Shown here piece by piece: positions 16,274-28,608 of a stretch of DNA of 44,891 bases; positions within the stretch are counted from its first letter, which is position 1; each line of letters opens with the position of its first letter. The position numbers were made by a program, and so were the translations under genes. Below the pieces are notes generated by a model that worked only from the letters and a program-made list of their open reading frames with translations, ran no database searches and had not been told where the DNA came from. Source of the DNA: Candidatus Omnitrophota bacterium (lineage in GTDB: Bacteria > Omnitrophota > Gorgyraeia > 2-01-FULL-45-10); the NCBI GenBank assembly GCA_028715345.1, contig JAQUSB010000014.1, positions 1 through 44,891 of the forward strand. Reading direction: 5' to 3'.

Positions 16274-16807
16274 CTATTGGGACTTTTGATCCACCACTAT
16301 AGTCCCCAGCGAAACGCCTTCTTTTTCCATTATCTCTTTGGATCTCTTATTACGGTCTTCTTTGGACTTGGTTTCATTTTCTATCTGGAGTTTGATGCTT
16401 TGATAATCTTCGCTCAATTTTGCCAGTTTCTTTGAAAGGCTGTCTTTTTCGGCCAGCTCGGAGGCAAGCCTATCTTTGAGCGAACGGATCTCGCTGTCGC
16501 GCTCGCCCAGCTTAACAAGATTGCCGCCGTGGGCGGTCTTTTCGTCGGCCAGCTGCCGCGTCATATCCGCTATCGTATCTTCCTGCGTCTTAAGGCGGGC
16601 CTTAAGCTCTACGGTGAGGGCATCCGCTTCTTTCAGCCTGCTTTCAAGATCCTGCTTTTCCGCGGTGATATCCGCGACTTTTTTCTGCAGGATGACTTTT
16701 TTACTTTTTTCACCCTCTTCCATTACGTAAAATGCCACCGTCGAATAGAGAAGGATAAAACATGCGACAGAAAAAGATATTATTATTACTTTAGTGTCTT
16801 TATTCAT
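16274..16807 (-). CDS. Membrane-anchored coiled-coil protein
   Basis: 177 residues: one N-terminal membrane helix (about 7-29) and a long heptad-rich coiled coil (about 33-150, dense in Glu/Lys/Leu with 'LESRLKEADALTVELKARL' type repeats). The tail (155-177) is charged, ending 'SLGTIVVDQKSQ'. No enzyme motif. It is the last gene of the merR-exeA-gspC-secretin unit, 12 bp after the secretin gene, so a structural role in the secretion apparatus is a reasonable guess, not shown. Confidence 0.78.
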   Translation of the reverse strand: MNKDTKVIIISFSVACFILLYSTVAFYVMEEGEKSKKVILQKKVADITAEKQDLESRLKEADALTVELKARLKTQEDTIADMTRQLADEKTAHGGNLVKLGERDSEIRSLKDRLASELAEKDSLSKKLAKLSEDYQSIKLQIENETKSKEDRNKRSKEIMEKEGVSLGTIVVDQKSQ

Positions 16808-16819
16808 GATCTACCTTTC

Positions 16820-18808
16820 TTATTGTTCGTTCGATATATCTATACTGAAACGTTTATTGCCGCCCCCCATGGATTTGGGGAACGCCGGGAAAGGCGCCGC
16901 TTTTCTTACCGCATTCACAGCCGGCTCCTCCAATACTGGATTGGTCGATTTTACGACACTGGGTATGCCTACAAGCTCCCCTTTAGGGGACAACACAAAT
17001 GTTACCTTAACGCTGCCTTTGGTCGAGGTGCCTTTGGTAGCTTTGGGCAATTCGCAATTACCGACGATGCTCGCCCTTACCGCGTAAAAATAATCGTCCT
17101 GCGTTTTTATCACGAGTTTTTTCGGGGCCGGCCCTGCCTTCTTCGCCTTAGCTGCCGCGGATTTGGATTTTTTGAAAATACCGGGATCCATTTCGGTTTC
17201 GTTCCTTCTTTCGAAAGTAGGCTTCTCGCCTTCCGTGAACATACGGGTGTTGATCGGGTATGTCTTTGGCTGTTCCAGTAGATCATATTCGCCCGTAACG
17301 ATATGCGGGGTCAAAAATACGACAAGCTCCTGTTTAATGACCTCTTTTACCGTCCTGCGGAAAGCCTGGCCGGCTATCGGTATGTCGCCTAAGTAAGGGA
17401 TCTTATCTACTGTGCTCGTCCTCTGGTCTTTTATAAGCCCGCCGATTATTATCGTAGTGCCGTCTTTTACCGTAACGCTCGTTTCGGCTTGCGTCGTGGT
17501 AACGATCGGGACCGTCGTCGACGGGCTGCCGTAAGTGTAATTGCTCGTCGAGGAACTGACCTCCGGCTTTATCTTCATAGTGATGAAGCCGTCCTTATTG
17601 ATGGTCGGGGTAACGTATAATTTCACGCCTATATCTATAAATGTAAGGTTCGTGGCTGTCGTCGCGAGCCCTGTGGTCTGGGTAACGGTATTTGTAGCGT
17701 AAGGCTGTGAAGTACCGACCAGTATCTTCGCTTCCTGGTTGTTAAGCGCCGTTATCCTCGGGCTGGACAAAAGATCCGTATCGCCTATGGTCTTTAAGAC
17801 CTGGACCATGACAGACCAGTCCGAACTGCCGAGCGCGCCGATGACGATCTGCGCTCCCGGAGGCCCGAAAGCATTCTGAGCGGCGATCTGAAAAGCGCTC
17901 GACAAATTCATATCCTTCATTACCGTTCCTACTTTTTGTATCACAGACTGCCAGTCAACCCCTAACTTATAATTATCGTCGAGGGTGATCTGCACTATCT
18001 TAGCCTCTATGAGTACCTGCTGCAGTTTGTCGTCGAACGCCGTCACCATCGTCTCTATCTCGCCCATCTTCCTGTCCAGGTCCGTGATCGCGACTTTATT
18101 TGTCCGCTCGTCTATCTGGATGGACCCTACGCCCTTTGTAAGTATATCCGTTATTTTTGCTTTAATATCGGCGGCCCTGGCATACTGCAATTCGAATACT
18201 TTCGTTACTGTCGGCATATCCAGTTCACGGATCGCTTCTGCTATCTGCGCTATCGTCTGGGGCGAGTCTATCACTACTACTGTATTGGAACCTTCGTCCA
18301 CTACCACTTTGCCTATCTTCGTCTTCATCTGGTTCAGGGCTTTGCTGACCTCGGCGGCCTTGGCATATTTCAAGTGGAAAGTTTTTACCTCTTTCCTGTC
18401 GCCGTACTTCTCCCCGTATATCGCCTCATATTCCCGCTGGGCCATTACATATATAATATCGCCGCGCTTGTCGTAAGCCAGGCCGTTGGCGGCAAGTATG
18501 ATCTCGAAAGCGTCCATTATATTCACGCTTTTTAAAAATATGGTGACCCGCCCTTTGACATCGTTCGACAGGATGACATTAAGGTTGCCTTTTGTCGCCA
18601 GCATCTTCACGACTTCCACGATATCCATGCCTTTAAGATCGAGGGAAACTTTATCGGAGCTTCCCACCCGCGGCATTGGACTATTGGCGCCTGAAGCAAG
18701 CGTATTCGCGGCATCCATCTGTATTTCGCCCCGGGCGAGAGAAATATCGCCGGCGAGCGAAAAGACGGTAAAGACCGTTATCATAAAACTCGAGATGATC
18801 TTTTTCAT
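16820..18808 (-). CDS. Secretin (GspD/PilQ family) with C-terminal TonB domain
   Basis: Outer-membrane gate of a type II secretion or type IV pilus-like system. 662 residues: signal peptide (1-27), a STN/N0 domain (about 52-118, 'VSLDLKGMDIVEVVKMLATKGNLNVILS'), two secretin_N repeats (about 142-195 and 205-262, 'TKVFELQYARAADIKAKI'), and the secretin channel domain (about 265-520) with 'VLIEAKIVQI', 'LSSPRITALNNQEAKI' and 'TIIIGGLIKDQ......PYLGDIPIAGQAFR'. After a Lys/Ala linker, the last ~95 residues look like a TonB/TolA C-terminal domain: 'YFYAVRASIVGNCELP', 'GSVKVTFVLSPKGELV' and 'AVRKAAPFPAFPKSM'. That fusion is unusual. It follows a GspC-like gene. Confidence 0.9.
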   Translation of the reverse strand: MKKIISSFMITVFTVFSLAGDISLARGEIQMDAANTLASGANSPMPRVGSSDKVSLDLKGMDIVEVVKMLATKGNLNVILSNDVKGRVTIFLKSVNIMDAFEIILAANGLAYDKRGDIIYVMAQREYEAIYGEKYGDRKEVKTFHLKYAKAAEVSKALNQMKTKIGKVVVDEGSNTVVVIDSPQTIAQIAEAIRELDMPTVTKVFELQYARAADIKAKITDILTKGVGSIQIDERTNKVAITDLDRKMGEIETMVTAFDDKLQQVLIEAKIVQITLDDNYKLGVDWQSVIQKVGTVMKDMNLSSAFQIAAQNAFGPPGAQIVIGALGSSDWSVMVQVLKTIGDTDLLSSPRITALNNQEAKILVGTSQPYATNTVTQTTGLATTATNLTFIDIGVKLYVTPTINKDGFITMKIKPEVSSSTSNYTYGSPSTTVPIVTTTQAETSVTVKDGTTIIIGGLIKDQRTSTVDKIPYLGDIPIAGQAFRRTVKEVIKQELVVFLTPHIVTGEYDLLEQPKTYPINTRMFTEGEKPTFERRNETEMDPGIFKKSKSAAAKAKKAGPAPKKLVIKTQDDYFYAVRASIVGNCELPKATKGTSTKGSVKVTFVLSPKGELVGIPSVVKSTNPVLEEPAVNAVRKAAPFPAFPKSMGGGNKRFSIDISNEQ

Positions 18809-18818
18809 GTGAGGCTCC

Positions 18819-19553
18819 TTATAAAAATAATGATATTTTTTTACCTTGGTAATCGAGGATCACTTTATCATCGGCTATTTCTTCGACGACATACCCGTCG
18901 AACGACTGCCCTCTCCTAAGGTAGTATGTCTTCTGCACTTTCTTGTCTTCTATGATGGCCTGCGGATCGTCGCCTGCCATTATCCCGACAAGGCCTATCC
19001 TTTCGGGTAAATTATCTTCTGTCGTTATGTTATCGCCGGCGCCTGAAGCCCCCGCCGACTTGCCGAATACCGACTTGCCGGAAACGGCGCCCGAATAAGA
19101 GGAATAATCCTTCACCACCGTAGTATCTTTATAACCGGCCCGTATGCCGTTGCCGGACTCGGATAGGCCGGCCTTCGAAACGATGGACTGCACATTTTTA
19201 TACGGCCGGACAAATATGAGATCGATGAAAAAATATAAAGACAATATCCCCAGAACTATAATAAGGTACCTGTTCACCGCCTTAAGCCTGGACGGTTCGA
19301 ACACTTTACTTTTAAATATCTCGTTTTTCAATATCCCGGAAACGCGCTCTTCTGTTTTCGAAATTACAGCCCGGGCTTGAGCGGCATCCTGCTCTTTGAC
19401 CGGGTCGGGACCGGGGATCTTCGACGGTGTTTCGTCAAATACGGCTGCGGCCGTCTTCCCGGGCGCCTCGTTATGCGCGGCCGGGGATGAGTGTTTCTTA
19501 TTCTTTATAAGGTTAAGCAGTTTCTCTTCGGGCGATATGTCTTTTTTCTTCAT
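18819..19553 (-). CDS. GspC/PilP-like inner-membrane linker protein
   Basis: 244 residues: a cytoplasmic Ala/Pro/Lys-rich stretch (1-88), one membrane helix (about 93-112), a Gly/Ser-rich periplasmic linker (120-180), and a C-terminal homology-region-like domain (about 185-244) with 'RIGLVGIMAGDDPQAIIEDKK.QKTYYLRRGQSFDGYVVEEI..DKVIL.YQGK'. GspC binds the secretin N0 domain and links it to the inner-membrane platform; placement directly upstream of the secretin fits. The call rests on architecture and position; sequence identity is low. Confidence 0.8.
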   Translation of the reverse strand: MKKKDISPEEKLLNLIKNKKHSSPAAHNEAPGKTAAAVFDETPSKIPGPDPVKEQDAAQARAVISKTEERVSGILKNEIFKSKVFEPSRLKAVNRYLIIVLGILSLYFFIDLIFVRPYKNVQSIVSKAGLSESGNGIRAGYKDTTVVKDYSSYSGAVSGKSVFGKSAGASGAGDNITTEDNLPERIGLVGIMAGDDPQAIIEDKKVQKTYYLRRGQSFDGYVVEEIADDKVILDYQGKKISLFL

Positions 19554-20369
19554 TTATATTATCTCTCTGTCTATTATCCTGGAAACCAAAGCGCTGTCGA
19601 CTATCGACTTATCGTGCATTACCAGCGCCTCCAGGGCATTGTGGCATATGATAGATGTCTTTCTCGGGTAGCCCTGAGTGTAGTCAAATATACGCCCGAT
19701 GGCCTCGTCCGTAAATATCTTTCTCGACGGGTCGAGCCCGGCTTCGGCGAGCCTGAACTCTATCATCTCCTTGGTCTCTTCCATGTCGAGCGGGTTGATT
19801 ATATATTTAAGGGATATCCTGTCGTAAAAATTTTTGATCTTCTTTATTCTCGGCAAAAGCTCCATCTGCGAAACCATCACAAGCTGTAACAATTTATATT
19901 CATTCGTTTCGTAATTCAAAAGCGTCCTCAATATCTCGAGAAAGGGCGTCGAGAGCTTCTGGCATTCGTCTATCAATAGGACCACCGTCTTCTTTTCATC
20001 CACGCCCTTCCTGAAAAGGTATTTCTGGATCTCTTCCCTGTAATCCAGGGTCGAGCGCGTATCCGGCTTTATGCCGAACATCTTGGCCAGGCTTGTGAGG
20101 AACTGGAACTCGGATGTGTATGAAGGGTCGAGCACTATGTGGAATACGTAATCTTCGTCGTTCGCGAATATCTGCAGGAGGGCCCGCGACATAGTGGTCT
20201 TGCCTATACCGACGTCACCGAGTATAACGCTCAATCCCCGTTTCAGCCTTATCGCTATTTCGAGCCTCTGTATCGCCGTGGAGTGAGCCGATGAGTGGTA
20301 GAAGAAAGCGGGGTCGGGGCTTGTAGAAAAAGGCTCTCTCGTCAATCCAAGCGCTTCGTAGTAACTCAT
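19554..20369 (-). CDS. ExeA/GspA-like AAA ATPase
   Basis: 271 residues of the ExeA family: starts 'YYEALGLTREPFSTSPDPAFFY' (family N-terminal signature), Walker A GDVGIGKT (51-58), Walker B VVLLIDECQ (129-137), sensor region 'LLQLVMVSQMEL', and 'ISLKYIINPLDMEET..MIEFRL..AG' and 'GYPRKTSIICHNAL' in the lid. In Aeromonas, ExeA with ExeB helps place the secretin across peptidoglycan; here no peptidoglycan-binding domain or membrane helix is attached. It overlaps the merR stop by 4 bp and abuts gspC with no gap. Role in secretin assembly is inferred. Confidence 0.88.
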   Translation of the reverse strand: MSYYEALGLTREPFSTSPDPAFFYHSSAHSTAIQRLEIAIRLKRGLSVILGDVGIGKTTMSRALLQIFANDEDYVFHIVLDPSYTSEFQFLTSLAKMFGIKPDTRSTLDYREEIQKYLFRKGVDEKKTVVLLIDECQKLSTPFLEILRTLLNYETNEYKLLQLVMVSQMELLPRIKKIKNFYDRISLKYIINPLDMEETKEMIEFRLAEAGLDPSRKIFTDEAIGRIFDYTQGYPRKTSIICHNALEALVMHDKSIVDSALVSRIIDREII

Positions 20370-20608
20370 GATATGCTCGCCTCGTTCATAATACCCTGCA
20401 TCTTCTTCAGAGGAACTTTGTCATGCCTGAGAGATATGATCTTCTGCAATCTTTCGAGAGTGGAGTCATCGAAATACCTGAAATTCGTCTCCTGGCTTCT
20501 CGATATCTCTTTCACAAGCCCTAATTTAAGGTAGTATTTGATAGTGTAGACAGAAAGGCCCGAAAGGCGGGATAGGTCTTTGATCAAGTATATGTTTTTT
20601 TCGTTCAT
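20366..20608 (-). CDS. Minimal MerR-type DNA-binding regulator
   Basis: 80 residues covering little more than a winged helix: 'YLIKDLSRLSGLSVYTIKYYLKLGLV' (helix-turn-helix) then 'ETNFRYFDDSTLERLQKIISLRHDKVPLKKMQGIM'. There is no effector domain and no metal-binding cysteine, so it probably acts as a dimer on DNA without a small ligand of its own. First gene of the exeA-gspC-secretin unit; tandem palindromes lie 5 bp upstream of its ATG and overlap the promoter, suggesting autoregulation. The ribosome-binding site (GAGAG) is weak. Confidence 0.85.
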   Translation of the reverse strand: MNEKNIYLIKDLSRLSGLSVYTIKYYLKLGLVKEISRSQETNFRYFDDSTLERLQKIISLRHDKVPLKKMQGIMNEASIS

Positions 20609-20693: not shown

Positions 20694-21230
20694 TTATTCT
20701 ATTATGACTTTGCTGATTAGAAAAGAGCCTTTCAGGGCGCCTTCCTGCCCTGCTTTCGAGGTGAGGATGAAGTGGCGGACTTTCAGTATCATGTTCTTCG
20801 TGTTTTCGATGTCATACAAGAATTTAGTGAATTGGCTTATACTGCCGTCGCATGTAAGGTCTATCAATAATTCTTTATATGTACCGTAGTCTTTTGTCCC
20901 GATAGGTTTTATGTTCTGCAAAACGCACGAATCGGCCCTGGACAGGTTTTCCAGGTACGAGAGGGCTTCGGACACTGTTTCTTCTTCGCTCTTACCGCTC
21001 ATCACATATTTGGAAAATTTTTCATAATTGGCTTCCAGGGTCTTGCGTGAGGCGAGCATCGCGAGGTCTTTTTTAAGCACTGCCGCCTTAGATCTCATCT
21101 CGTTATTCAGCCCCTGCCAGCCGCGCAAGACCGGGTCGAGCACAAAACTATAAAGGATCGCGAGCGATACGAATGAAACCGTCGCTATCGCGATCACCCT
21201 CTCTCTTTTATTCATATTTTTCATCAGCAT
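20694..21230 (-). CDS. GspM/PilO-like assembly platform protein
   Basis: 178 residues from ATG 21230, two bases after the GspL-like stop; an ATG 27 bases upstream inside gspL is also possible. A short basic N-terminus, one membrane helix (about 11-29), then a coiled segment (40-75) and a periplasmic ferredoxin-like domain (about 85-178) with 'LSYLENLSRADSCVLQNIKPI', 'LTCDGSISQFTKFLYDIENT' and a final 'LISKVIIE' strand. This is the PilO/GspM architecture. It pairs with the GspL/PilM protein to form the inner-membrane platform. Last gene of the gspE-M unit. Confidence 0.83.
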   Translation of the reverse strand: MLMKNMNKRERVIAIATVSFVSLAILYSFVLDPVLRGWQGLNNEMRSKAAVLKKDLAMLASRKTLEANYEKFSKYVMSGKSEEETVSEALSYLENLSRADSCVLQNIKPIGTKDYGTYKELLIDLTCDGSISQFTKFLYDIENTKNMILKVRHFILTSKAGQEGALKGSFLISKVIIE

Positions 21231-21232
21231 AC

Positions 21233-22609
21233 TTATTTCGCCTTCGCGATAGGGCATATGATCTCGAAATCCGCCGCTTCGGCCGACTGGGCCGTTCTCT
21301 TATTGGCATACCTGACCTTAACGTTCTCGAAATACTGCGACTTTTCCAGGATCGCGATATATTTAAAGACATCGCTTAAGTTAAGCGCCGTGCCTTTTAG
21401 AGTAACGGTCTTGCCCTTTTCATACTCCATCGTCGAGAGCCCTATCCCCGGCGGCGTTATTTTAAATACCTCGGTCACCAGGTCTATCGCAAGCGGCCGC
21501 TCGGCTATTTTCGAGGTAACGAGGTCTATCGTCTTGGCCATCTTCTTCGCTGATCTTACCTGGGGCTCTATCTTCGCAAGTTCGGTCTTTACATACGCTA
21601 CATAGGCGTTCTTATCGTGAAGTTTCTTTATAACGGCGCCGAAAGCTATCAAGATTATCAATGCCGACACGGACAGGCCTACTACTATATTGTTCTTGAT
21701 AAGGCCGAGTCTGTATTCGGCCCGGGTCGTTTCAGGCAAAAGATCCACTTTCACCTCTTCGCTCTTCAATATGAGGCCTATGAGCTCTATATACGACGCT
21801 TCTTCATCTCCCGGAGAAGGCCCTTCCGCCACAGGCACGGCTTCCATCTGGGCCATCACCTCTACCGGGACCTTCACTCTTTCGGCAAGGAAGGCCTTCA
21901 GTTCACCGGCTTTCGCCGGAATACCGCTTAAGCATATCTTATCTATCGATATGCCTGATTCTTTCCTGTAAGCGGCCATAGATAAGTGGATCTGCTCGAT
22001 CATGCGTTCGGAAGATATGGGCTTGCCGGGATCATACGATACGCCTCTCGTAAATACCAGTTCGTCGCCTTTCGTGATATTTATATCTATATGGTCCGAG
22101 TCTATATTGGCCAATAATACCGTTTTGCCGTCCGCGGCCTCCCGGCCGGCCGAGTACCACAAAGAAAGGGCCTCGGATCCCAGCGCGGCGCTTTCTACGG
22201 ATATGCCCGCCTTTTTTAAAAGTTCCGCTTCCTTTTTAACGGTTTCGGCCTGCGCCACCGCTATAAGCACAGTAGAATACCCGTCGGGAAATTTCTCTAT
22301 GATCTTGCATCCGGATATCATCTCTTCGTCGGCATACGGTATATGCTTAAGCGACTCTATCTTGGACATCTTCAGGATCTCGGCGTCATCCGTCGAGGGC
22401 AGTTTAAGGAACCTGATCGTTACGAGGTGGCGGGGGATGTTCAGCATTACGCGGCGATACCCGATATCAAGCCTTTCGAATATGCCGTTTATCTCGGCGG
22501 CGAGCGCATCGTCTTCTTTCGCTTCAAGCGGCTCTTTTGTAAGCCGCGTCACGATCCTTTTCCCGCGGACGAAGCGGGCTTGGGCTATCTTTATAAAACC
22601 CGCGCCCAT
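21233..22609 (-). CDS. GspL/PilM-PilN-like platform protein (start uncertain)
   Basis: 458 residues from the first ATG. An actin-like PilM/GspL cytoplasmic domain (about 1-275: 'RRVMLNIPRHLVTIRFLKLPS', 'MSKIESLKHIPYADEEM', 'VLLANIDSDHIDINI'), a membrane helix (about 310-330), and a periplasmic PilN/GspL-type ferredoxin-like domain (about 345-455: 'ERPLAIDLVTEVFKITPPGIGLSTMEYEKGKTVTLKGTA'). The ATG at 22609 falls inside the first beta strand: in the same frame upstream there is ILEYFRGIFDLNKDSVAVE, which looks like genuine PilM N-terminus, but contains no ATG, GTG or TTG. Real initiation is probably at CTG 22636 or ATA 22666, or there is a sequence error. It links the GspE ATPase to the pseudopilus machinery. 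Confidence 0.82.
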   Translation of the reverse strand: MGAGFIKIAQARFVRGKRIVTRLTKEPLEAKEDDALAAEINGIFERLDIGYRRVMLNIPRHLVTIRFLKLPSTDDAEILKMSKIESLKHIPYADEEMISGCKIIEKFPDGYSTVLIAVAQAETVKKEAELLKKAGISVESAALGSEALSLWYSAGREAADGKTVLLANIDSDHIDINITKGDELVFTRGVSYDPGKPISSERMIEQIHLSMAAYRKESGISIDKICLSGIPAKAGELKAFLAERVKVPVEVMAQMEAVPVAEGPSPGDEEASYIELIGLILKSEEVKVDLLPETTRAEYRLGLIKNNIVVGLSVSALIILIAFGAVIKKLHDKNAYVAYVKTELAKIEPQVRSAKKMAKTIDLVTSKIAERPLAIDLVTEVFKITPPGIGLSTMEYEKGKTVTLKGTALNLSDVFKYIAILEKSQYFENVKVRYANKRTAQSAEAADFEIICPIAKAK

Positions 22610-22659
22610 TTCGACGGCAACGGAATCTTTATTCAGATCGAATATACCCCGAAAGTATT

Positions 22660-23679
22660 CTAATATTCGCGATAGGCTGATGGTTTTGGCGCCTTTCCCT
22701 GTTCTTTGCGGACAATATACACTACTCTCTTCTCGGCCTTGCTCTTTTTGACAATACCTTTCGAATCAATTCTAAAGTAGACGGAACTTATTGTAAAGTC
22801 TTTTGTGAGGTTGGCCGATTGCGTGGCGGACAACGCGCCCTGCGATATCTGTTCCAGGTTGACCTGGGCGGTCGTGAATTTGTTGTCGTCCTTGGTGCCC
22901 GGCCTGGCATCATATCCGCTGCGCAATGCGATTATTTTATCGGCGCAGAAATCCGCCGTTATCTTATCGATACTCGAATCAGTGGAAGCGTCGGCCATTA
23001 TTATGGTACTGAGGACCGTTTTCGGCGCCGTATTTATATTCACGGCGAATGTGTCCGGGCCGAACACCGTTATATGATCTTTTATCTTGTTAAAAATATC
23101 GGCGTTCATGCCTTTCACAAGAAGAAGCTCTTCCGGCGCGCTGAATCGCGCGTGTTTACTCTTATAAGGGGACGGCAAAGACTCATAGTATCCGTCGTCG
23201 AGGCCCGGCCCCGGGCTGCGCCACTGTACTATGCCGGAGGCGATCGTAGGGTCTTCGCCGACGTATATGAGCAGGTTCTTCAGTATATTCTCCGAGGCGG
23301 TATTTATGTTTATCCTGCGCTCTTCATCGGACATCCCGGGATACGTTATGCCGTCCTCGTTATACGCGACGTTAAAATACCCTTCGCCGAGGAGATCGCT
23401 GAATATCGCCGCGGCTTTCGCCGGATCGGACCGCTCCTCATAAGAGAACGCGGTGCCGCATTCATATAACGTATCGCCGCTGGCGGGATTTTTTGCCAGC
23501 CTGTACATCGCTTTGGCCGCGCCCGCTTTCGCAATGTATAATGCTTTGAGGCTATCCATGTTATACTTCGCCAGGCGCGCCTCGATCGATACCCTGAAAC
23601 CTATGCCGACGGCGAAGATCGACAATATGGCAAGTATCCACAGGGAAGTTATAAGCACTGTGCCTTCTGTCTTACGCAT
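22660..23679 (-). CDS. gspK: Minor pseudopilin GspK
   Basis: 339 residues. Prepilin leader MRKTEG then TVLITSLWILAILSIFAVGIGF as the hydrophobic helix. Position +5 is Thr, not Glu, which is the hallmark of GspK at the pseudopilus tip. The large soluble domain has the GspK helical (SAM-like) signatures 'RRININTASENILKNLL', 'FSAPEELLLVKGM' and 'VNINTAPKTVLSTII', and 'QISQGALSAT'. Its stop codon overlaps or abuts the in-frame extension of the GspL-like gene. Confidence 0.92.
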   Translation of the reverse strand: MRKTEGTVLITSLWILAILSIFAVGIGFRVSIEARLAKYNMDSLKALYIAKAGAAKAMYRLAKNPASGDTLYECGTAFSYEERSDPAKAAAIFSDLLGEGYFNVAYNEDGITYPGMSDEERRININTASENILKNLLIYVGEDPTIASGIVQWRSPGPGLDDGYYESLPSPYKSKHARFSAPEELLLVKGMNADIFNKIKDHITVFGPDTFAVNINTAPKTVLSTIIMADASTDSSIDKITADFCADKIIALRSGYDARPGTKDDNKFTTAQVNLEQISQGALSATQSANLTKDFTISSVYFRIDSKGIVKKSKAEKRVVYIVRKEQGKAPKPSAYREY

Positions 23680-24347
23680 CAGGTCTCCTCGCCCAGCTCA
23701 CCCGACGGGATAAAGACCGTCTTCGTGAAACCGCCCGCTCTTATCTTCACGCCGCGCGGGATATTCACCACGTTTTTCTCTTCCCAGGCGTCTTTCCATT
23801 CATATTCGTACTCGGAATTCGATATCATATCTTTGTAGCAATACAAGAAGCCGAGATCTTTTTCTTCGACGCCGTAAAGCATATCGAAAGCCTTCGCGTT
23901 CGCCTCATCCAGCCCTTCCGCCCTTGTCGCGACGAGCCGCTTGACGGTCTTATTTGCCTTGTCATAGAGATAAGTGACCCTGGCAAGTTCATCATGCATG
24001 CCCGCTCCCGGACCGGATACACTGATGACCGTTATGAACGATATCCTGTCGGGCGCGCCTTCGAAATTTATCTTGCCCTCGTACTCCTGCCCGAAGCCGG
24101 GTTTACTAAGCACCTCTTCCTTCCCGTAATACGCCACTGCGTTCTTAAGGTCCAGCGAGACGGTATTAAAGAATACCCGCAAGGCCTGGTTGGCCTCTAT
24201 CATAGGCGACGTCTTCAGCCACACTTTTATGCCGGCGTGAAAAGTGGAATAAATACTCACCGCTATTATCGAAAATATGGTCACTGCGATGATAAGTTCG
24301 ATGAAAGTAAAACCCGCCGGCGGTTTTTCGCGCTTTTTTGTCGTCAT
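23679..24347 (-). CDS. gspJ: Minor pseudopilin GspJ
   Basis: 222 residues with a class III signal, ...PPAG (12) before FTFIELIIAVTIFSIIAVSIYSTF, with Glu at +5. The soluble part has 'NQALRVFFNTVSLDLKNAV' and 'ISFITVIS...ARVTYLYD', as in GspJ and its relatives. It starts 4 bp inside gspI and ends at gspK. GspJ joins GspI and GspK in the pseudopilus tip complex. GspJ rather than another minor pilin is supported by the order H-I-J-K. Confidence 0.88.
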   Translation of the reverse strand: MTTKKREKPPAGFTFIELIIAVTIFSIIAVSIYSTFHAGIKVWLKTSPMIEANQALRVFFNTVSLDLKNAVAYYGKEEVLSKPGFGQEYEGKINFEGAPDRISFITVISVSGPGAGMHDELARVTYLYDKANKTVKRLVATRAEGLDEANAKAFDMLYGVEEKDLGFLYCYKDMISNSEYEYEWKDAWEEKNVVNIPRGVKIRAGGFTKTVFIPSGELGEET

Positions 24348-24721
24348 CTTTTCTTCCCGATATATGTGAATAAGGAATACTTGTCCGGGCTCGAAACCTT
24401 ATTATAGAATACATCTAATTTAACGCTGCAAAGGTCGCTCATGTTCTGGCCCTCGGGCGCCAGGCTGGCGGAATCGGCCGACCAGGAATAGTCCCTCGCC
24501 TCGGGGAAATGGTCTTCGGCCCTGCCCTCTTCGATAACTCCCCTCTCTTCGAAGCCATACATCTTCTCTTCCAGCAGAAAAGAATATTTGAACATGTCCC
24601 GCGAGCGGTCCAGCGCTTCCTTCGCCGTGGAATATACCCTCATGACAAAAAGCAGGCCGCTCGTTATCACGACGATGCTCACCATGACTTCCAGGAGCAG
24701 TATCCCTTTTTTACCTTTCAA
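24344..24721 (-). CDS. gspI: Minor pseudopilin GspI
   Basis: 125 residues. Leader MKGKKG then ILLLEVMVSIVVITSGLLFVMRVY: processing after Gly6 with Glu at +5. The short soluble domain ('SFLLEEKMYGFEERGVIEEG') matches GspI in length and position. It overlaps gspH and gspJ at its ends. Confidence 0.87.
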   Translation of the reverse strand: MKGKKGILLLEVMVSIVVITSGLLFVMRVYSTAKEALDRSRDMFKYSFLLEEKMYGFEERGVIEEGRAEDHFPEARDYSWSADSASLAPEGQNMSDLCSVKLDVFYNKVSSPDKYSLFTYIGKKR

Positions 24722-25226
24722 CTTTAACCTCTTTTATCTGGACAAAGCTGCCGAACCCTTTTAACGCAATAGTGTAGCCGGCCCCGCCTTTATCTATAAT
24801 GCCTATGAAGAGCTCGTCGCAATGGCCGTCCGGATAGAATACGACCTGTTTCTTGAATTCTCCTTCGGCGTTCTCGGTCATCCCGGTTTTTGGGTCATAG
24901 AACGACAGCCCCTGCGGCAGGCCGAAACTTTTGCCGAAGCGGCTCTTTTCTTTCACATACACGGGCCCCTTGGCCGACGGGCCGGATTCGAACAATTGAT
25001 ATTTTCGCCCGTTAAGGTCGAATATCACTTTATAAGTTTTCCTGTTTATAATGGATTTTTCCCGGGCATAGCTCACAAGTTTCGAGATATTGAACGCGGC
25101 ATCTTTTGAAGAGAGGTCAGAGAAGGTATGCCTGAACAGGGGGATGGACAGCCCGGCGATCGCCAGGATTATCACGGTAACGAGCGTAAGCTCGATCAAT
25201 GTGAAGGCCGGCCTCTTTTGCGTCAT
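24711..25226 (-). CDS. gspH: Minor pseudopilin GspH
   Basis: 171 residues. Leader MTQKRPA then FTLIELTLVTVIILAIAGLSIP; Ala instead of the usual Gly precedes the cleavage site, while Phe +1 and Glu +5 are kept. Prepilin peptidases tolerate Ala at this position. The soluble domain has the GspH pattern 'NISKLVSYAREKSIINRKTYKVIFDL' and a C-terminal 'VVFYPDGHCDELFIGI' strand pair. It overlaps gspG by 4 bp and gspI by 11 bp. Confidence 0.88.
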   Translation of the reverse strand: MTQKRPAFTLIELTLVTVIILAIAGLSIPLFRHTFSDLSSKDAAFNISKLVSYAREKSIINRKTYKVIFDLNGRKYQLFESGPSAKGPVYVKEKSRFGKSFGLPQGLSFYDPKTGMTENAEGEFKKQVVFYPDGHCDELFIGIIDKGGAGYTIALKGFGSFVQIKEVKVER

Positions 25227-25645
25227 TGCTCCCGGCTTTCACCTGTATTGCCGGCAGCCTCCCAGTTCGTAACATCGTCACCTTCGCCGTTATTATCGAC
25301 GCCGTCTTTGCCGAAAGAGTAGAGGTCGTAGTCGCCGTGCGCGCCGGGGTATACGTATTTATACGGATGGCCCCAGGGATCTATCGCGCTCTTTTTAAGA
25401 TACGGCCCTTTGCCGTCCTTCTTCTCTAAAAGGATGTCGAGATTATCCGGGTAAGAGCCGTGGTCTATCTCGTAAAGATCGAGCGCGGAAGCGATGTTCG
25501 CTTCTATGTCCGCTTTGGCGGCGGCGGCCTTTGCCTGTTCCGCGCGGCCGGCAAGGCGCGGCATTACCATCGCGACCAGCGTTCCGATGATTATGACTAC
25601 GAGCATAAGCTCGACGAGCGTGAAGCCTTTGGCGCATTTACGCAT
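25223..25645 (-). CDS. gspG: Major pseudopilin GspG
   Basis: 140 residues. Leader MRKCAKG then FTLVELMLVVIIIGTLVAMVMPRL (Glu at +5). The soluble domain is unmistakable: 'AKADIEANIASALDLYEIDHGSYP', 'GPYLKKSAIDPWGHPYKYVYPG.HGDYDLYSFGKDGV' and the calcium-site-like 'DNNGEGDDVTNW'. It forms the shaft of the pseudopilus, and strongly supports type II secretion over type IV pili. Confidence 0.96.
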   Translation of the reverse strand: MRKCAKGFTLVELMLVVIIIGTLVAMVMPRLAGRAEQAKAAAAKADIEANIASALDLYEIDHGSYPDNLDILLEKKDGKGPYLKKSAIDPWGHPYKYVYPGAHGDYDLYSFGKDGVDNNGEGDDVTNWEAAGNTGESREQ

Positions 25646-25662
25646 GATGCTCTCCTTATTTT

Positions 25663-26880
25663 TTAACGCGTCATGAAATTTATTTCGAATATCGGCAGCA
25701 GCATGGATATCACTATGAAACCCACGACGACGCCGAGTGTCAGTATAAGCATCGGTTCTAAAAGCGACATCATTACTTTTATGGCCTCGTCCGATTCCCT
25801 GTCGTAGCTCTGCGCCACCTTAAATAATGAGCGCTCCAGGTGGCCGGCCTCTTCCCCGATCGATATCATATTTATTACGGAGCCGGGAATGACGGCGCTC
25901 GCAAAAAAACCGTTCGCGAGCGACGATCCTTCCCTCACCGCATCGTACGCTTTTTCGATCTCTTTTTTTATGACTGCATTATCTATCGTATCCGAAGTGA
26001 CCTTAAGGGATTCGAGTATCGGGACGCCGTTCTCCAAAAGCGTCGCCAGAGTCCTGGCGAACCTGGCCAGCTCCACTTTCATACCAAGTTCCCCGAATAT
26101 CGGGACCTTCAGTTTTAAATTGTCCAGGGACAGACGCCCTTCGGGAGTAGCATAGACTTTGGCAAGGAAAGCGCCGGCAAAAAAAGCCGCTATCACTAAT
26201 GCCCACCAGTAATTTTTCACAGCCGTGCTTATCACCAGCAGGATCTGCGTCGGTAAAGGAAGGGCCTGGCCGAGATCGGCGAACATCACCATCATCTTCG
26301 GTATCACGAATGTCATGAGAATTATTATCGTTGCCAGCCCGACGAGAGACATGAGGACGGGATAAGCCAGCGCCGTCCTTATCTTCGTCTGTATATCGAG
26401 CTGTTTTTCGCTGAAATCGGATAGCCGGTGCAGTATCTTCTCAAGCGCCCCGCCCGTCTCGCCCGAGCGTACCATGCTGACATAGAGGTTCGAGAACACT
26501 TTCGGATGGCGCGCGAGCGCGTCCGACAACGGGCTGCCGCCTATGCAGAAATCGCGTATATCCATTATGACGCTTTTAAGTTTTTTGTTCGGGGTCTGGT
26601 TATATAAGATATCGAGGGCCTTGACGATCGTAATGCCGGATTCCATAAGGTCCGAAAGCTGCCGGGTAAAGCTTGCCACGTCCTTTAAAGCGATCCGGCC
26701 TAAGACCTGGCTTGCGACGCCTTGAGCAGCTTGGGCCGCCGATGCTTCTTCGTCCAAAGATACGAGAAAATAGCCCATATGAGCTATTTTCTGGACAGCC
26801 GCAGCTTTGTTATCGGCCACAAGAACGCCCTTTATTATTTCCTGCGGGCTTTTTTTGGCCTCATATGCGAATCGCGCCAT
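25663..26880 (-). CDS. gspF: Type II secretion platform protein GspF
   Basis: 405 residues, polytopic inner-membrane protein that binds the GspE ATPase. Two T2SSF domains (about 70-195 and 272-394) with the repeated 'FTRQLSDLMESGITIVKALDIL' / 'FARTLATLLENGVPILESLKV' motif and 'MVRSGETGGALEKIL' / 'MISIGEEAGHLERSL'. Membrane helices lie at about 168-190, 220-240 and 375-398. The N-terminal 'FAYEAK....I.G.L.ADNKAAAVQKI' is also typical. Confidence 0.95.
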   Translation of the reverse strand: MARFAYEAKKSPQEIIKGVLVADNKAAAVQKIAHMGYFLVSLDEEASAAQAAQGVASQVLGRIALKDVASFTRQLSDLMESGITIVKALDILYNQTPNKKLKSVIMDIRDFCIGGSPLSDALARHPKVFSNLYVSMVRSGETGGALEKILHRLSDFSEKQLDIQTKIRTALAYPVLMSLVGLATIIILMTFVIPKMMVMFADLGQALPLPTQILLVISTAVKNYWWALVIAAFFAGAFLAKVYATPEGRLSLDNLKLKVPIFGELGMKVELARFARTLATLLENGVPILESLKVTSDTIDNAVIKKEIEKAYDAVREGSSLANGFFASAVIPGSVINMISIGEEAGHLERSLFKVAQSYDRESDEAIKVMMSLLEPMLILTLGVVVGFIVISMLLPIFEINFMTR

Positions 26881-26886
26881 GTCGGA

Positions 26887-28608
26887 TTACTCTTCTATCT
26901 CGTCGAGCTCTTCCTGCTGGGTGACCCTTATGACTTCGCTCGGCGTCGTAATTCCCATCATTATTTTTTCCCAGCCGTCCTGCCTGAGCGTCCTCATGCC
27001 TAATTCTACGGCTTTCTTTTTGATCTGGTCGGACGAAGACCTTTTAAGGACAAGCTCCCTTATCGGTTCGGTCATTTCAAGGAACTCATATATAGCGGTC
27101 CTGCCTTTGTACCCGGTGAACCTGCATGCGTCGCAGCCTTTGCCCTCGTATATCTTAACCTTGGAAAGGTTGCGGCCGGATACGCCCAGCTCGGCGAGCA
27201 ATTCTTTGTCCGGCTTCACCTCGCGTTTACACTTCGGGCATATGACGCGCACTAGGCGCTGGGCGATAAAACATTCCACCGCGCTCGCCACAAGGAACGG
27301 CTCCACGCCCATGTCTACAAGCCTTGTGACGCCGCCCGCGGCATCGTTAGTGTGGATAGTGGAAAATACGAGATGGCCCGTGAGCGCGACCCTTATCGTG
27401 ATCTCCGCCGTTTCGTAATCCCTGACCTCTCCGACCATCATAACGTCCGGGTCGTGGCGCAGCATGGACCGCAGGGCATTCGCGAAAGTGAGATTTATTT
27501 TGGGCTGTACCTGTATCTGTGTAATGCCTTTGAGCTGGTATTCGATAGGATCTTCTATGGTTATTATCTTTTTATCGATGGTATTTATTTTGCTCAAAGA
27601 CGCGTAAAGCGTGGTGGTCTTGCCGGATCCCGTCGGGCCGGTGACGAATATTATGCCGTGCGGGATCTTTATCATACGCTCCAGGATGGCAAGGTCTCTT
27701 TTTAAGAGGCCCAGGTTCTCCAGGCCGAAACGGACATTCGTCGAGAGTATCCTTATGACGACCGACTCCCCGAACGGGGTGGGGAGTATCGACACCCTGA
27801 GGTCGACCTCTTCGCCGCTTACGCGTATCTTCATTCTGCCGTCCTGAGGAAGCCTGCGTTCGGCGATGTCGAGGTTCGCCATGATCTTTATGCGCGAGAT
27901 TATAGCCGACTGGAATTTTTTTATCGACGGCGGGACTTTAGTCTCGTGGAGTACGCCGTCTATCCTGTATCTGACCGAAAGTTCGTCTTCATACGGCTCG
28001 ATATGTATGTCCGTCGCCCTGTCTTTATATGCCTGGGCCAGCACCTGGTTAACGAATTTTATGATCGACGCGTCCTCGGCCGACCCGGCGACGTCCTGCG
28101 TTTCCTGGGCCTGGACGCTCATTATCCTCTCGGGCCCTCCGGCTTCCGGGGCCATCTTCTCTATCGTTTCCGCGCCGACGCCGTAGTATTTCTTTATCGC
28201 TTCTAGTATGTCCCTTTTCGACGCCAGTACCGCCTTTATCTCTTTCTTCAAGAGAAGCCTCAGGTCGTCTATGGTATGTATGTCGAGAGGGTTGGTCATG
28301 GCGACCGTTATCGAACTGTCCGTTATCTCGATCGGTATCAATTCATAATGGCATGCGAATTTCGCGGGGATCTCGTCTATTACTTTGGGGTTTATTCTTA
28401 TGTCTTTAAGTTTTATATAACCGACGCCCGACTGCTGGGACAGGATGTTGTAAAAATCATCCTCTGCTATAAGCCCTGTCTTTACCAATATGTCGCCTAT
28501 GCGCTCCTGCGAATGCTCCTGCTCCGAAAGCGCCCTTTCGAGCGCCTCCATGGTTATGAGGCCCTTTTGTACTAAAAGCTGCCCTATCAGGCTGGAATCT
28601 TTAGGCAT
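26887..28608 (-). CDS. gspE: Type II secretion ATPase GspE
   Basis: 573 residues, the cytoplasmic motor of pseudopilus assembly. An N-terminal MshEN/T2SSE_N-type region (about 1-150) precedes the ATPase. Seen motifs: 'DIHIEPYEDELSVRYRIDGVL' (about 200-220), Walker A GPTGSGKT (324-331), Asp box 'ITIEDPIEYQL', Walker B 'DVMMVGEVRDYETAE', His box 'GHLVFSTIHTNDA', and a zinc-binding tetracysteine C457-x2-C460 and C492-x2-C495. No PilT-like retraction ATPase is present. First gene of its unit; AAGGGG lies six bases before ATG 28608. Confidence 0.96.
   Translation of the reverse strand: MPKDSSLIGQLLVQKGLITMEALERALSEQEHSQERIGDILVKTGLIAEDDFYNILSQQSGVGYIKLKDIRINPKVIDEIPAKFACHYELIPIEITDSSITVAMTNPLDIHTIDDLRLLLKKEIKAVLASKRDILEAIKKYYGVGAETIEKMAPEAGGPERIMSVQAQETQDVAGSAEDASIIKFVNQVLAQAYKDRATDIHIEPYEDELSVRYRIDGVLHETKVPPSIKKFQSAIISRIKIMANLDIAERRLPQDGRMKIRVSGEEVDLRVSILPTPFGESVVIRILSTNVRFGLENLGLLKRDLAILERMIKIPHGIIFVTGPTGSGKTTTLYASLSKINTIDKKIITIEDPIEYQLKGITQIQVQPKINLTFANALRSMLRHDPDVMMVGEVRDYETAEITIRVALTGHLVFSTIHTNDAAGGVTRLVDMGVEPFLVASAVECFIAQRLVRVICPKCKREVKPDKELLAELGVSGRNLSKVKIYEGKGCDACRFTGYKGRTAIYEFLEMTEPIRELVLKRSSSDQIKKKAVELGMRTLRQDGWEKIMMGITTPSEVIRVTQQEELDEIEE

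Follow-up and report, generated by a model that had tools for sequence, protein, structure and literature searches.

A TonB/TolA-type C-terminal domain on secretins of Omnitrophota and its possible role in periplasmic docking

The window, a 44,891-nucleotide stretch of DNA from a Candidatus Omnitrophota MAG, carries a T2SS-like operon on its reverse strand in the order GspE, GspF, pseudopilin, GspJ, GspK, a GspL/PilM-PilN fusion, GspM, a MerR-type protein, an ATPase, GspC and a secretin. The GspE, GspF and pseudopilin genes (24711..28608) were recognized with NCBIfam models, and those for GspJ, GspK, the GspL fusion and GspM (20694..24347) from their open reading frames, profile matches and conservation. 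These are followed by the conserved gene for a small MerR-type DNA-binding protein (20366..20608; profile match), a GspA/ExeA-like AAA ATPase (19554..20369; AAA_22, TIGR03015) and a GspC/GspB-like protein with an HR domain (18819..19553; T2SSC 28.8 bits, T2SSB 19.9 bits), which lies directly upstream of the secretin gene (16820..18808). The order is kept in named Omnitrophota genomes, as is the placement of GspC next to GspD. Beyond the secretin, on the same strand, an open reading frame (16274..16807) conserved only in close relatives encodes a coiled-coil protein with one membrane segment. The first-pass annotation had named this protein as a possible contact of the secretin C-terminus; the gene is real, but it is missing from most loci that carry the C-terminal domain described below and was rejected as a general partner.

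The open reading frame, its Pfam matches and an AlphaFold model identify the product of 16820..18808 as a T2SS/T4P-type secretin of 662 residues. Its beta-barrel domain (residues 338-504; 17297..17797) matched PF00263 with 165.1 bits in hmmscan (cut-off 27.5); STN and Secretin_N (two stretches) were also above their cut-offs, and the N0 model was just under its own. The GspD equivalog TIGR02517 scored 277.4 against a cut-off of 351.35 and the PilQ model TIGR02515 scored 272.2 against 284.35, and the protein is a GspD/PilQ-like secretin assigned to neither. PF13629, the pilus-type N-terminal domain of Tad RcpA/CpaC, is absent from it.

The full-length model, built from an alignment of 48 sequences, has the order signal region, N0, further ring domains, barrel to residue 504, disorder up to 569, and a TonB/TolA domain at residues 570-660; with a pTM of 0.47, the domains of this monomer model can be trusted, though not their arrangement. 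The N-terminus is modeled as a hydrophobic helix (residues 2-18) followed by a disordered stretch, and the sequence contains no S-x3-H motif; residues 1 to about 25 (18734..18808) were read from model and sequence as a signal peptide region and not a TonB-type anchor. An N0/STN-like domain follows at residues 53-123 (18440..18652; STN at 76-123, GspD N0 at 56-112, and the model). Behind the barrel lies a linker (residues 505-570; 17099..17296) that is disordered by pLDDT, with values below 50 at 515-541 and 543-563; the linkers of 72 homologues have a median length of 47.5 residues and are rich in Lys and Glu. No S-domain helices were seen in residues 505-570 of the model, and the reading of the C-terminus as an S-domain was therefore rejected, in agreement with the first-pass annotation. 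Solved secretin structures match the protein only up to about residue 507, and tail-less relatives stop shortly after the barrel.

The remainder of the protein is a TonB/TolA-like domain (residues about 571-660; 16829..17098). In hmmscan, TonB_C (PF03544) matched residues 588-646 with 29.2 bits (cut-off 24.6) and TonB_2 (PF13103) residues 571-651 with 28.0 bits (cut-off 22), and the NCBIfam model TIGR01352 (tonB_Cterm) gave 32.8 bits (cut-off 27.1). Twenty homologous tails from Omnitrophota, 19 of which match TonB_C in isolation, were combined into a profile that retrieved TonB structures from the PDB (6sly, 5.8e-07; 5lw8, 7.4e-07). The 102-residue tail was predicted by AlphaFold2 with a pLDDT of 86 and the order helix-strand-strand-helix-strand, and the closest Foldseek matches of this model were the H. 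pylori TonB C-terminal domain (TM 0.72), FusB, TolA-III and HasB. Chance resemblance to TonB was rejected on the combined Pfam and NCBIfam scores, PDB profile matches and Foldseek matches. The TonB-like end and fold proposed by the first-pass annotation are thus confirmed; the range it had given, 16820-17170, covers residues about 547-662 and includes the folded domain, which is itself narrower. In the model only two residues follow the last strand. As the protein ends right behind this strand, the strand may stay free, and its position at the very C-terminus is compatible with partner binding by strand addition.

The nearest relatives of the tail are the phylum's own TonBs, and, compared column by column, the core positions of T2SS-type tails are mostly common to the phylum's anchored TonBs. 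Pro616 (codon at 16961..16963), located by a column table of the tails in the second beta-strand of the domain, is present in 97% of T2SS-type tails and is not among the commonest residues in phylum TonBs or Tad tails. When near relatives were held out, the best-scoring model for 72 of 73 tails was that of the other tails. By these sequence comparisons, the tails form a domain family that is stable across the phylum.

A scan of genome contigs returned 273 relatives of the secretin, the best 80 of which are nearly all labelled Omnitrophota. The tail is in frame in 61 of these 80, while 15 lack it, three have a tail broken by a stop and one runs off the end of its contig; as the 80 were chosen by their similarity to a tailed query, 61/80 is not an unbiased frequency. 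The tail is no peculiarity of one protein but is found in many related secretins. At least 26 of 145 Omnitrophota genomes contain a tailed T2SS-type secretin. No tailed secretins outside Omnitrophota turned up in the plasmid collection, where 770 and 896 records had secretin matches and at no site was as much as 80% of either query covered, and none were seen in viral contigs. The second secretin of the window's own genome is tail-less, which indicates that a tail is not needed by every secretin to reach the outer membrane; it lies in a second operon (L145, 4637-10415 in G000:C6) with an AAA ATPase, GspC and a 991-residue coiled-coil/TPR protein.

With the tail left out of the secretin tree and the three broken tails scored as present, tail presence or absence changes 10 times, compared with 20.9 times in shuffles. 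The tail is, by its distribution, a conserved domain of Omnitrophota T2SS-type secretins that has been lost several times. The three broken tails are from three MAGs (L099, L100 and L118), each with a single in-frame stop (TAA, TAA and TAG, respectively) inside the tail or immediately ahead of it and the tail otherwise intact, and represent sequencing errors, early loss or split expression. These stops, together with clean loss in several lineages (L106, L130), are what would be expected if the tail were a tolerated fusion of no important function. That explanation is highly improbable, however, given the deep conservation of the domain with invariant columns, its clustered inheritance and its recruitment onto more than one secretin class.

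Secretins are usually placed by an S-domain and its pilotin, by GspAB, or by peptidoglycan-binding N-terminal domains. In addition to the missing S-domain, a search limited to the PulS/OutS family found no such pilotin in any of the 145 Omnitrophota genomes, the window's own included, with E. coli as the positive control. The GspA-like ATPase of the operon lacks a periplasmic or peptidoglycan-binding part, and its homologues are 266-292 residues long when intact. The GspA of Aeromonas and Vibrio has a periplasmic peptidoglycan-binding part (PMC9239104), and in other T2SSs the anchoring of the secretin to peptidoglycan is supplied by GspB or GspA (PMC9239104, PMC4098917). GspB makes this tie through its own C-terminal extension (PMC9239104), and ExeB has been called TonB-like (PMC4098917). 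TolA and TonB domains are described as binding their targets by beta-strand addition (PMC12204202).

Strand addition by known TonB/TolA domains and peptidoglycan anchoring by GspB favor an explanation in which the tail is a periplasmic docking or anchoring module of the secretin ring, to which we assign a probability of about 0.48. The absence of an S-domain, of a PulS/OutS pilotin and of a peptidoglycan-binding part on the GspA-like ATPase supports this explanation, as do the TolA/TonB fold and sequence of the domain, the stability of the tail family, and the use of such domains on a second secretin class, a lipoprotein and giant coiled-coil proteins; the existence of tail-less secretins with the same operon, in which the tail is replaced by nothing recognizable, speaks against it. 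In known structures, secretin rings have 12-15 subunits and the C-terminus is on the periplasmic side. Each subunit would thus contribute one TonB/TolA-type domain, tethered by a flexible linker some 50-60 residues long, and these domains, in a number and on a side presumably set by the ring, would hang in the periplasm around it. Each would most likely grip a short partner peptide by beta-strand addition, as in TolA/TonB, or hold peptidoglycan directly; the partner could be a lipoprotein of the outer membrane, a protein associated with peptidoglycan or some other component of the machine. The tail would in this way place or stabilize the channel, and its anchoring role would be one that falls elsewhere to pilotins, GspB, or AMIN or LysM domains. 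Two suggestions of the first-pass annotation, contact with peptidoglycan and an unusual way of placing the channel, may accordingly hold.

An alignment of GspCs from 54 tailed and 15 tail-less loci revealed no obvious tail-specific binding motif, and GspC gained no obvious support as the carrier of one. Several other proteins of the phylum also end in a TonB/TolA-type domain (L177, 440-8449; L178, 3350-6514; L183, 2210-4444): these non-secretin proteins comprise giant coiled-coil proteins (2670 and over 1055 residues), a lipoprotein and a possible outer-membrane barrel.

A rival explanation is that the tail couples the channel to TonB-dependent receptors, for uptake or outer-membrane signalling, by binding their TonB box. 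The tail's nearest relatives, the phylum TonBs, do adjoin receptor genes in several genomes, and PopC secretion in Myxococcus is described as needing a receptor (PMC6434023). However, four genomes that are 92-97% complete (G013, G124, G102 and G122) encode a tailed secretin but lack any match to Plug or to the receptor barrel, which weakens the case for a TonB-dependent receptor as the tail's general partner and for the receptor contact suggested by the first-pass annotation, and 72 of 73 tails differ consistently from TonBs (Pro616). Receptor coupling is consequently considered improbable. The window's own genome has only one TonB-dependent receptor, which is cut by a contig start; directly behind it is the gene for a 150-residue protein that combines a signal peptide with a TonB-type domain and has no spacer (L144, 1461-1913 in G000:C1). 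In genomes without detectable TonB-dependent receptors, an anchored TonB gene adjoins cobalamin-biosynthesis-like genes (L164, L165 and L166).

Alternatively, the tail might pair with a motor-driven TonB or TolA, as a heterodimer or by strand exchange, so that force from ExbB/ExbD gates or remodels the channel. The components for such pairing are widespread: ExbD-family genes are present in 119 of the 145 genomes, and anchored TonBs with the S-x3-H motif are common in Omnitrophota. The tail itself, however, lacks the S-x3-H membrane anchor, and so cannot directly take force from ExbB/ExbD and is itself no force transducer. A candidate for the missing half was an anchored TolA/TonB-like protein adjoining TolQ/TolR-type genes (L143, 4590-5003 in the own genome, G000:C58; also L234-L237), a protein of about 136 residues with the S-x3-H motif and no C-terminal domain, conserved in the family. 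It was rejected, as relatives carry it equally whether or not they have a tailed secretin, and motor pairing is likewise regarded as improbable.

The tail profile also retrieved, in a search of the phylum, a second class of tailed secretins: Tad/RcpA-type proteins of ~540 residues (PF13629 plus PF00263), in which TonB_C matches at or after the barrel with 52-80 bits. In a phylum search with their own profile, about 50 of 53 such secretins have a TonB tail; 46 matches reach the tail end, another two reach it as split matches in two pieces, and two lack the tail, whilst in three the TonB domain is internal to a longer protein, which Pfam confirmed for two. Tailed loci of this type include L174, L175, L176, L179, L180, L181, L184 and L194-L223, and the secretin at L180 has two TonB_C copies. 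A PilQ-like secretin of G004 is tailed too, with a score slightly under the Pfam cut-off.

The canonical TonB YP..A motif is kept in Tad tails and missing from T2SS-type tails, and on the free tree the Tad tails cluster with HasB and the TonB of H. pylori, separately from the T2SS-type tails and phylum TonBs (99% SH-aLRT). Both observations disfavor a single origin of all secretin tails; a single clade was not rejected by the AU test (p 0.27), and separate origins are therefore likely, not proven. One T2SS-type secretin (L027) is an exception within its class: its tail scores 101 bits with the phylum TonB model versus 67 with the tail model, and on the secretin tree its neighbors are tail-less, which makes a separate recruitment likely. 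The different subtype of the Tad tails and the phylum TonB subtype of L027 point to repeated recruitment.

That two unrelated classes of secretin have such a tail suggests a function tied to the ring rather than to one substrate. A substrate-directed explanation would be that the tails form a vestibule in which beta-strand addition serves to recognize substrates, pilins or intermediates of assembly. Many peptide-grabbing domains ringed near the channel would be well suited to this function, and pilin-like fibres are handled by both Tad and T2SS secretins, but the surroundings of the operons revealed no substrate gene linked to the tail, and the two tail subtypes differ yet are placed identically at the end of a linker; this explanation is unlikely. 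It is possible, and is offered as a tentative extension, that the TonB/TolA domain is a general outer-membrane docking module in Omnitrophota that was added to secretins of different machines (T2SS-type and predation-linked Tad) on at least two or three occasions, has a common envelope partner, and replaces the S-domain/pilotin pair.

A fusion of a secretin with a TonB-type domain was not described in the papers searched, as the first-pass annotation had anticipated, although domain-architecture databases may list such proteins. A survey of Omnitrophota treats the Tad complex as a predation trait and mentions neither TonB nor "secretin"; the RcpAs of Velamenicoccia group there with those of Stigmatella, Vulgatibacter and Lysobacter (PMC10066038). 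Both parts are already known; their combination and its repeated occurrence appear, as far as we are aware, to be new. A built-in TonB/TolA end on two unrelated secretin classes suggests a further way of tying the ring to the envelope and a use of the TonB/TolA domain away from motor-driven force transduction. The hosts are uncultured, probably predatory nanobacteria, and since Omnitrophota Tad machines are linked to predation (PMC10066038), the tail would be a testable handle on how contact machines are built. In the Velamenicoccus archaeovorus enrichment, the Tad complex is expressed.

The window secretin resembles GspD and PilQ (PF00263; PDB 5wln, 6i1x) in its signal peptide, N0/STN and N1-type domains and secretin beta-barrel, and its operon resembles those of GspD systems in containing GspC, E, F, J, K, L and M; unlike GspD and PilQ, it has no S-domain and ends in a disordered linker and a TonB/TolA-type domain. 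That domain shares its fold, glycines, PFP-type motif and terminal last strand with the C-terminal domains of TonB and TolA (PF03544, PF13103; 6sly, 5lw8, 2m2k), but it has no transmembrane motor anchor and is attached to a channel of the outer membrane, where the domains of TonB and TolA belong to inner-membrane proteins. The Omnitrophota Tad RcpA/CpaC secretins (PF13629 plus PF00263; PDB 8odn, 8jvb) likewise have a TonB domain C-terminal to the barrel, although they belong to another secretin class and their tail has the canonical YP..A motif. The proposed role is the same as that of GspA/GspB (ExeAB, OutB) and PulS/OutS, bringing the secretin to the outer membrane and tying it to peptidoglycan; those are separate proteins acting on the N0 or S-domain, whereas in the window secretin the C-terminus itself bears the TonB-like part as a fusion.
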